From positions 1-54,343 of the forward strand of contig JAFGEW010000028.1 of the NCBI GenBank assembly GCA_016931415.1: DNA of 54,343 nucleotides, read 5' to 3'. Source of the stretch: Verrucomicrobiota bacterium (GTDB lineage: Bacteria > Auribacterota > JABMQX01 > JAFGEW01). Under the pieces are notes generated by a model. It did no database searches, was not told the DNA's origin, and saw nothing but the letters and a program-made list of their open reading frames with translations. This document shows positions 52,073 to 54,343 of the stretch, one piece after another. The first letter of the stretch is position 1. Each line of letters starts with the position of its first letter. Both the position numbers and the translations under genes were made by a program.

Positions 52073-52563
52073 TCAATGCGTTTTGCGCAACACTAGGCAG
52101 ACGTGTCTCCGCAAGCGGCGGATCTTCAGGGCATCGATAACCGAGTCAAAACACTTGGCCAGCAATCGCAACAGCCGGAAGCGGCGCGGGTACCTCCCGA
52201 TACACGACATGCACACGACGTCAACAACCTCGAATCCGCTGTGCCCGAATACAGCAGTCAAGTGGGCGATGCTTTGGCATGCGTAGCTGGTTTCCCATGC
52301 TTGCTTCACCTTGGTCAAAGCTCGCCTGAACCATGTGTGAAACCGGGTGCTCGTGTGCCTTGCTATGACGAACTCGGGCGCCGCGGGACTGGGGATCGTC
52401 GCGACGAAGAGGCCGCCGGGCTGGAGGACACGTGCGATCTCGCGCGCGGCCCCCGACAGGTTCCCGACGTGTTCCAGGACCCAGATGGAGAACGCGGCGA
52501 TATACGTCCCGGACGGAACGTCGGGCATGCACTCGATGGGGCACTGGTGGGCCTTGCCCACCC
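52073..52563 (-). pseudogene. Truncated SAM-dependent methyltransferase
   Basis: The remaining 163 codons encode the second half of a class I methyltransferase: AFSIWVLEHVGNLSGAAREI, RVLQPGGLFVATIPSP, then a C-terminal helical part ending CLVLRKTH. The N-terminal glycine-rich SAM-binding motif is missing, because the reading frame stops at the left end of the insertion sequence at 52564. The 5' part must lie beyond the IS, outside the window. A GTG at 52561 sits right at the junction but does not restore the missing domain. Confidence 0.8.
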
Positions 52564-52581
52564 CTGGAGTTTGGCCCTTTT
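52564..52581 (+). repeat. IS left terminal inverted repeat
   Basis: The 18-base sequence CTGGAGTTTGGCCCTTTT matches the inverse of 54326-54343 at 17 of 18 positions, differing at position 14. The last two bases overlap the transposase stop codon TAA. Confidence 0.9.
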
Positions 52582-54013
52582 ATGCTCGTTGGGCGCCGTA
52601 GAGCACGGCTGAGGCGAGCGTGGTTTGGAGTTTTGGGGGCTTTGGGGTGCCCGATGGTCGCGACGCGAAGTGGGGAAAATGCAGGCTCAGCCCCCAGGCT
52701 TCGGCGCGCAGGCGGCTCAGCAGCACTTGGGTCGAGGTGCGCCCCGGCGGGCGGCGCCGCCACTTGGGTGGCGGCAGCCCGTGGTTGGGCAAGCCACCAC
52801 GCTCGGCGGCGGCCAGCAGCAGGGCGTAGGCGGCTACGCTCAGCGTCGGCACGCTGGCGGCCGAGTCGGGATGGCGCACCTGGGCCTGACCGCATCCGAG
52901 CACCGTTTTCTCGTCGCGGAAGTTGACTTCGATGTCGCTTCGCCACAGGTAGCTCTGCAACACGCGGGTCAGGTCAAGCTGCACGTCGCTGCACAGCAGA
53001 TACGCCGGGCGGCGGTAGAGCAGTTTGGAGCCGGCACTGAGCCGGTAGCCCAGCGGGGCGATGACCAGGAGGCGAAGATCATGGGTCGCGCCGGCGGCGC
53101 GCCAGCGCAGCGGCGCGAGTGTTTTGACGCGGAACGAGTGGGTCTTGCCGGCGGCCCAGGCGCTGACGGTCTGCCAGGGCCGAGACGCGTCGGCGCGCAC
53201 CTGCTCGGGCGTCGGCGCGGCTGGACCGTAGAGGCGCCGACGGCCCCGGGTCGGTTGCTCGTCGGGCAGCCAGGCCAGGTGAGCGTCGCCTCGGATGCGT
53301 CCGATAAAGACGGTGCGCTCGGGCAGGTGCTTGAGCAGGGTGCCGTTGGTGTAGCCGCCGTCGCCGACTGCGCAGATCGGGGCGCGCCGGCCGTCGTGGT
53401 CGAGCGCCTTGCGCAGCCGGCCGAGCCGCTGGGCGGCCACGATGCCGAGGCGCTGACGGCGCTGGGCCTGTCGGTACTCGGTCCACTGTCGGGGCGCGGC
53501 GTTCTTGGTGGGCTTTTTCGGCGTGGGGGCGTGAACAAAGTCGACCGGCACCATGCGCACGGGCCCGGTCTTGGCGCCGCGCCCGGTTTGCGTGCCGATG
53601 GGCAAGGCCAGCGACAGTTGCACGAAGCGCTGGGCGCGGATCAAGTTGAGGTGAAACGGCGGGCCGAGCGGATCGCGTCTGTAGGCGGCGCCGGGGATCT
53701 TGGCGCCGGTCTTTTTGATGTGCGTATCGTCGAGGGCCACCACGAGGGGCGCGCCCGGTTCGAGGCGCTTGGCCACCGCGCGCCGCACCGGCTCGAAGAG
53801 CCGCTCGGGCGCGATGCGGCCGGCGCTGTAGAGCCGGTAGTCGGCCGTCCAGTCGTCGAAGAGCCGGTCGGTGGTAGCGATCAGGCCGGTCAGCGTATGG
53901 CGTCCCAGGCACAGCAACTGGCCATAGACGTGGCGCCGGACGCGCACGGCGCGCGCCGGCGAGAGGTGCTCGCCGGTGGCGAAGGCCGCCAGCATCGCGT
54001 CGATGCCGTCCAT
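52580..54013 (-). CDS. IS701/IS4-type DDE transposase
   Basis: The 477-residue transposase has the first catalytic Asp in VVALDDTHIKKTGAKIPG (D95/D96), the second in AVGDGGYTNGTLL (D218), and the Glu in SDIEVNFRDEKTVLGCGQ (E362), the last being a K/R-containing motif like that of IS4/IS701 enzymes. The start ATG (54013) shares four bases with the stop of the upstream AbrB-like gene (ATGA). Its frame is also open upstream to the A8 tract at 54027-54034, so a fused form is possible. Family assignment within the IS4 superfamily is by eye. Confidence 0.88.
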   Translation of the reverse strand: MDGIDAMLAAFATGEHLSPARAVRVRRHVYGQLLCLGRHTLTGLIATTDRLFDDWTADYRLYSAGRIAPERLFEPVRRAVAKRLEPGAPLVVALDDTHIKKTGAKIPGAAYRRDPLGPPFHLNLIRAQRFVQLSLALPIGTQTGRGAKTGPVRMVPVDFVHAPTPKKPTKNAAPRQWTEYRQAQRRQRLGIVAAQRLGRLRKALDHDGRRAPICAVGDGGYTNGTLLKHLPERTVFIGRIRGDAHLAWLPDEQPTRGRRRLYGPAAPTPEQVRADASRPWQTVSAWAAGKTHSFRVKTLAPLRWRAAGATHDLRLLVIAPLGYRLSAGSKLLYRRPAYLLCSDVQLDLTRVLQSYLWRSDIEVNFRDEKTVLGCGQAQVRHPDSAASVPTLSVAAYALLLAAAERGGLPNHGLPPPKWRRRPPGRTSTQVLLSRLRAEAWGLSLHFPHFASRPSGTPKPPKLQTTLASAVLYGAQRA

Positions 54014-54219
54014 CAGGGCCGTCGAGTTTTTTTTACCCGGACCGGCCAGGGCGGCGCCTCAGGTCGATGGAGCACCAAGTTGGCCTTGTCCTCGACGATC
54101 CATTCGACCCGTTCGCCCTTGCCCAGATCGACCGCCTGGGCCACAGCCGAGGGCACATTGATGTACCACTGCCGGCTCTTCTTGCGCTGGATGAGCTGGA
54201 CCTTGGTGGGGAAGCCCAT
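54013..54219 (-). CDS. AbrB/SpoVT-like DNA-binding protein of the IS
   Basis: The 68-residue protein (MGFPTKVQLIQRKKSRQWYI, NVPSAVAQAVDLGKGERVEW, IVEDKANLVLHRP) has the swapped-hairpin AbrB/SpoVT/MazE fold pattern: beta-strand, Pro-Ser-Ala-Val-Ala helix, Leu-x-x-Gly-Glu-x-Val/Val-Glu strand. Such proteins bind palindromic DNA and often repress their own operon. A ribosome-binding site AGGAG lies seven bases before the ATG. Its stop overlaps the transposase start. It ends with VRVKKTRRP, in which the two Lys codons are the A-tract slippery site. Confidence 0.72.
   Translation of the reverse strand: MGFPTKVQLIQRKKSRQWYINVPSAVAQAVDLGKGERVEWIVEDKANLVLHRPEAPPWPVRVKKTRRP
54027..54034 (-). other. 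Candidate -1 frameshift site (A8) in the IS
   Basis: Eight A residues on the minus strand lie in frame as GTA AAA AAA ACT in the AbrB-like gene, which gives the slippery heptamer A AAA AAA. A -1 slip continues as AAC TCG ACG GCC CTG ATG GAC with no stop and enters the transposase frame at its ATG. A weak imperfect hairpin (TCGA..GCC..GGC.TCGA) lies just downstream. Confidence 0.5.
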
Positions 54220-54230
54220 GTGCGTCTCCT

Positions 54231-54254
54231 ATGACTAGTCATATCACTAGTCAT
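54231..54254 (-). promoter_or_regulatory. Two abutting palindromic operator-like sites upstream of the AbrB-like gene
   Basis: ATGACTAGTCAT (54231-54242) is a perfect 12-bp palindrome, and ATCACTAGTCAT (54243-54254) is the same with one change. They lie head-to-tail with no spacer, just upstream of the ribosome-binding site of the AbrB-like gene. This is where a repressor of its own transcription would bind. Confidence 0.6.
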
Positions 54255-54325
54255 AAGAGTGGGCCAAAGGCGCCGCGGACGCAAGAGCTTTCTGCCTCCG
54301 AACAAGCAAAGGAACAACCCACTAG

Positions 54326-54343
54326 AAAAAGGCCAAACTCCAG
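54326..54343 (-). repeat. IS right terminal inverted repeat
   Basis: Read on the minus strand the last 18 bases are CTGGAGTTTGGCCTTTTT, the partner of the left repeat at 52564-52581. The end coincides with the end of the window, as expected when an assembly breaks at a multi-copy element. Confidence 0.9.

Follow-up and report, generated by a model that had tools for sequence, protein, structure and literature searches.

The window, which is the whole stretch of 54,343 nucleotides analysed, contains an insertion sequence that probably represses itself through an AbrB-type protein, uses a -1 frameshift fusion of this protein as its working transposase, and inserts at hairpins that it duplicates; we give this combined model a probability of about 0.8. 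Most ribosomes would yield the AbrB protein alone, and an AbrB dimer bound to a CTAG-N8-CTAG operator over the promoter would keep the element repressed. A minority of ribosomes would move one base back on an in-phase A_AAA_AAA heptamer and produce an AbrB-transposase fusion, which would be the working transposase. The AbrB part of the fusion probably also reads a CTAG half-site at the left end of the element, and the transposase would place each end 0–1 base from the base of a hairpin, so that the whole hairpin is duplicated. The gene layout, tract, frame, operator, left-end box, and hairpin duplication come from sequence comparison, and it is from these that we infer repression, slip, fusion activity, and the mechanism of target choice.

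The insertion sequence spans positions 52564–54343 (1780 bp), with both genes on the minus strand. It is bounded by 18-bp terminal inverted repeats on the minus strand, the right one CTGGAGTTTGGCCCTTTT at 52564–52581 and the left one CTGGAGTTTGGCCTTTTT at 54326–54343, which are identical at 17 of 18 positions and differ by one mismatch. Relatives are 1688–1829 bp long and have the same ends, CTNNNN-TTTGG. From the left end at 54343, the order is the inverted repeat, a CTAG box, a palindrome, an AGGAG motif, the AbrB reading frame, an A8 tract, and the transposase reading frame. The sequence-only reading had described an element of this length with 18-bp repeats, an AbrB-type gene preceding a DDE transposase, the A8 tract, and the palindrome, all of which are present, and it overlooked the hairpin flank and the left-end operator half-site. 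The insertion sequence is fully real as observed, apart from the detail of the gene overlap: the ATGA that had been claimed is TGATG with one shared base, and is not kept in relatives. Contig G000:C28 ends exactly at the left inverted repeat, and the window ends with it. At the insertion site lies a methyltransferase gene of which the contig contains the 3' part (52073–52561, minus strand; PF08241 matched from profile position 47) and lacks the N-terminal half; the insertion sequence apparently interrupted it. The assembly contains no other full copy of the window element. Among 59 host-related genomes, none was found to contain a close relative, which marks the element as recently arrived or foreign in the host.

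A scan of genome contigs identified 36 loci with related transposases (34–60% identity in the best segment), and whole-genome searches in four phyla enlarged this set. The relatives belong to at least seven phyla, namely Verrucomicrobiota, Bacteroidota, Acidobacteriota, Actinomycetota, Synergistota, Planctomycetota, and proteobacterial groups. They come mostly from metagenome assemblies, in which homopolymer errors are possible. Viral contigs contained no relatives, and plasmid records contained only distant ones, with 24–26% identity. Several copies occur in genomes G348 (six with AbrB), G574 (four with AbrB), and G159 (14 without AbrB). The six G348 copies have identical transposase matches and each has an A8 tract, which we counted for the mobility of an element with the AbrB-tract-transposase layout. 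In the transposase tree, elements with AbrB cluster together, except for L004 and L014, members in which AbrB is lost or truncated, and L128, which forms a long branch. The neighbouring clade has the same ends and lacks the A tract; upstream of its transposase, which has a start of its own, is a HARE-HTH gene (PF05066) in place of AbrB. The clade includes L071 (1280–1483), the other G159 copies, L029, L072, L073, L130, and L146.

The putative AbrB/MazE (SpoVT-AbrB) DNA-binding protein has 68 residues and is encoded at 54013–54219 on the minus strand, behind the ribosome-binding site AGGAG at 54226–54230 (minus strand), which was assigned from sequence. It matches PF04014 with an E-value of 6.7e-5 and 23 bits, slightly below the gathering score of 24.7, and the same profile is matched by nine of 23 members tested. 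The predicted fold, with a pLDDT of 81, has the order beta-beta-alpha-beta-beta, as in MazE and SpoVT, and is compatible with the swapped-hairpin topology of such domains. The top structural matches of the model are MazE, an AbrB-like archaeal plasmid protein, and SpoVT, all of them weak (E > 0.4). An AbrB-like reading frame stands directly upstream of the transposase in most complete loci. By sequence comparison, AbrB is the better-conserved half of the element across phyla: in 22 relatives it is 51–70% identical to that of the window, and the transposase is 39–56% identical. The AbrB/MazE domain is frequent among antitoxins, the fold closest to the model is that of MazE, and an AbrB/MazE-PIN pair is present on one Tn3 family transposon (PMC7157771), which would be in keeping with AbrB being a passenger or a toxin-antitoxin relic that has no role in the element. 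However, the element contains no toxin gene, AbrB is more conserved than the transposase across phyla and stands in frame register with it, and it has a conserved candidate operator and left-end half-site, all of which make a passenger or relic very improbable. The AbrB of L064 shares 89% identity with its counterpart in L003, and the L064 transposase shares at most 47% with that of any reference member; it is possible from these identities that L064 is a recombinant element. In L014 (about 446–560), most of AbrB is deleted and the transposase is still open, and the remaining start reads in frame into the transposase.

The putative operator is a 34-bp palindrome at 54226–54259 with the core CTAG-N8-CTAG at 54235–54250. 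The same core, with its 12-bp spacing, occurs 18–56 nt before the AbrB start in 31 of 35 distinct upstream regions. A third CTAG half-site is located at 54322–54325, 18 nt inside the left end, and such a left-end box is present in 23 of 35 elements, mostly at 17–19 nt. There are 97 CTAGs in 4.2 kb of upstream regions, as compared with eight in 49 kb of transposase sequence, and none was found among 28 right ends. In L067, the operator arms are changed to TCATAGT-N6-ACTATGA and the left-end box likewise to ACTATGA (from ACTAGAT), a parallel change that would follow if a single protein recognises the two sites. The conservation of the operator bears out the earlier suggestion of an autorepressor, and we infer that AbrB represses its own element by binding CTAG-N8-CTAG.

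The A8 tract of the window (AAAAAAAA) is located at 54027–54034 on the minus strand and includes an in-phase slippery heptamer A_AAA_AAA at 54034–54028. Entered at this site, the transposase part of the fusion reads in the -1 frame over 52580–54028 (minus strand) and has 482 residues plus stop. Among 37 distinct loci with AbrB, 34 have an A8 or A9 tract near the 3' end of the AbrB gene, and 35 have at least seven A's. The background is low, with four runs of eight or more A's in 44.8 kb of transposase coding sequence, where the lysine codons AAA and AAG are evenly used. AbrB and the palindrome core are likewise kept, and the layout thus holds in relatives, where it had been proposed that it be checked. 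It had also been proposed that relatives without the AbrB gene or the tract would speak against the plan if they still transposed; L014 lacks most of AbrB and L013 lacks the tract, but both are single copies, so this objection applies only in part.

The transposase of 30 of the 35 tract-bearing elements is in the -1 frame. Eleven of these 30 lack an in-frame ATG, GTG, or TTG for the transposase as far as 11 codons beyond the tract, so the fusion appears to be read as the usual transposase. The conservation of the transposase between relatives starts a few residues from the slip site. The AbrB stop is found 11 to 132 nt after the tract, and because of this variation it is not a conserved coupling point. 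These observations bear on the alternative that the element contains two translationally coupled genes, in which the transposase is made from its own ATG within TGATG and the tract is incidental. TGATG is present in the window, and the sister clade with HARE-HTH has a separate transposase start. Such coupling is nevertheless improbable, given the start-less relatives, the variable position of the AbrB stop, the conservation that reaches back to the slip site, and the retention of the tract even in GC-rich genomes. A nearby ATG follows the tract in only three of the 30 -1-frame elements, the window and two relatives, in which separate initiation of the transposase is possible. A functional TGATG overlap was dropped from consideration, as the overlap is incidental and is not kept across relatives. 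The fused transposase of the sequence-only reading is therefore borne out by the tract, the -1 frame, and the missing starts, but the fusion was there taken for a second form; from the compared sequences it is probably the main, and perhaps the only, transposase.

The slip could occur on the ribosome or during transcription. The number of A's needed for an in-phase A_AAA_AAA depends on where the tract starts: nine from codon position 1, eight from position 2, and seven from position 3. Among the -1-frame elements, tracts starting at position 1 have nine A's in 12 cases and seven in L079, a degenerate fragment; those starting at position 2 have eight A's in two cases and nine in three; and those starting at position 3 have eight A's in ten cases and nine in two. 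A8 is thus restricted to tracts in which eight A's suffice for the in-phase heptamer. If length ignored phase, the occurrence of nine A's in all 12 position-1 tracts would have a probability of 1e-4 (L079 excluded; kinship uncorrected), and the pattern occurs in several branches of the tree. Ribosomal frameshifting is favoured because tract length follows reading phase, which slippage by RNA polymerase ignores, and the old AbrB frame of L014 still contains an in-phase A_AAA_AAG heptamer. Polymerase slippage, in which an A is added or dropped on A8 or A9 as has been reported for IS1447, is the somewhat unlikely alternative. Runs of seven to nine A's are enough for slippage in both directions in IS1447 (PMC6211511), and no conserved downstream frameshift-stimulatory structure was found among the relatives. 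In addition, slippage in both directions would keep usable the five of 35 elements whose tract is one base off, which puts their transposase into the other frame (L016, L022, L064, L123, L128). One of them, L123 of G574, has A8 and the other transposase frame beside the A9 sister copies L117, L125, and L127, which may reflect a sequencing error. Judged from the sequences, we prefer ribosomal frameshifting over polymerase slippage by about two to one.

One base outside the right end of the element, at 52546–52562, is a hairpin GGTGGGC-CTT-GCCCACC (GGTGGGCCTTGCCCACC), which is its presumed target. Only this flank is visible, as the other copy would fall beyond the contig end, and no second site of the hairpin, searched for as the other flank, was found in the assembly. 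In relatives, a hairpin lies directly outside the ends in 93 of 108 flanks, as compared with 11 of 600 random positions. The foot of the hairpin is mostly 0–1 nt from the element, a spacing that the window hairpin fits. In 22 copies, both flanks carry direct repeats of 18–44 bp; nearly all of these repeats consist of the hairpin with 0–1 base on each side, and a longer hairpin gives a longer repeat. The flanking hairpins are often terminator-like (window 52546–52562, L003–L127). The six G348 copies carry different hairpins, and the hairpins therefore belong to the target; that they are parts of the element was ruled out, since copies of one element bear different hairpins. The well-sampled HARE-HTH elements are also found at hairpins, and hairpin targeting therefore needs no AbrB. 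Long variable target duplications are also listed for the IS1182 and IS1202 families. Copies L117 and L125 (G574:C1:326239 and 383662) have opposite orientations and exchanged flanking hairpins, a pattern indicating that recombination between the two copies inverted about 57 kb. A broader proposal, to which we assign about an even chance, is that this family of DDE insertion sequences recognises hairpins by shape and not by sequence, cuts 0–1 base from the stem base on each strand, and duplicates the hairpin, and that in one clade the AbrB repressor replaces the HARE-HTH protein of the sister clade, is joined to the transposase by the frameshift, and reads both the promoter and the left-end half-site. 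If true, whole-hairpin targeting would add shape-guided target choice to DDE transposases and account for copies at terminators and repeat hairpins.

The transposase belongs to the IS4/IS701 superfamily. From its ATG, the reading frame encodes 477 residues (52580–54013, minus strand), including the full Y-(2)-R-(3)-E-(6)-K motif of the IS4 family (YLWRSDIEVNFRDEK). Among 17 members, the R, E, and K of this motif do not vary and the Y is almost constant. The best profile for all 17 members tested is NF049999 (IS701_3), which the window transposase matches with 140 bits, below the cut-off of 170; the match to NF033540 is 47 bits (cut-off 150). In structure prediction, the closest match is Tn5 transposase, with an E-value of 2.3e-8. 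A family of insertion sequences is defined by catalytic site, organisation, ends, and target fate; compared by this published definition, the group qualifies as a separate family, and it is probably a new one, set apart from IS4 and IS701 by their published descriptions. No description of a group of AbrB-transposase insertion sequences was found in the open-access literature.

The similarity to IS4 elements of the IS50/Tn5 type is limited to the DDE transposase with its YREK motif and Tn5-like fold. IS4 elements have a single reading frame without frameshift and duplicate about 10 bp of the target (PMC2266710), whereas the elements described here keep an AbrB frame, an A8/A9 tract, and a -1 transposase frame, and duplicate 18–44 bp in accordance with hairpin length. 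The two-frame layout and the long duplications thus confirm that the plan is unlike that of IS4, as had been remarked from the window. With IS701, the elements share the best profile and a terminal core, CTNNNNTTTG, which is common to the IS701-like copies of G492. They differ in the extra DNA-binding gene, the frameshift fusion, and the duplication of whole hairpins, whereas IS701 duplicates 4 bp (PMC2266710). The IS701-like G492 copies, which served as a negative control for hairpin targeting, have a single reading frame and ends CTCGACTTTG; they lie at no hairpin and duplicate about 5 bp of the target (CTRAG). The insertion sequences ISPsy8, ISPa11, and ISRm22 are similar in that every copy is tied to a palindrome, but they insert into one palindromic repeat sequence (REP), which is broken at a fixed point, with repeats of 0–6 bp (PMC1525189), whereas the AbrB elements use any hairpin and duplicate it whole. 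IS1447 of the IS3 family also has an A9 tract between the two frames of a fused transposase, but it relies on transcriptional slippage, and its transposase and upstream protein are different.

In its two-frame plan, the element would work like IS1. In IS1, the upstream gene encodes InsA, a DNA-binding repressor, and a -1 slip on an A-rich heptamer fuses InsA to the catalytic domain (InsAB'). The IS1-like mechanism, in which the short protein represses and the -1 fusion is the transposase, is supported for the window element by the comparison of relatives. Frameshifting in IS1 and IS3 has been described (PMC4066793). The differences are that the repressor fold is that of InsA in IS1 and AbrB here, and that the transposase family, ends, and target are also distinct. 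The defining trait of IS4-type elements is a transposase gene that stands alone, and a member of their superfamily would here have reached the IS1-type solution independently, making repressor and transposase from one message by a slip, with a repressor fold unrelated to that of IS1. The paired operator and end sites offer a natural set for testing one DNA-binding domain in both silencing and transposition.
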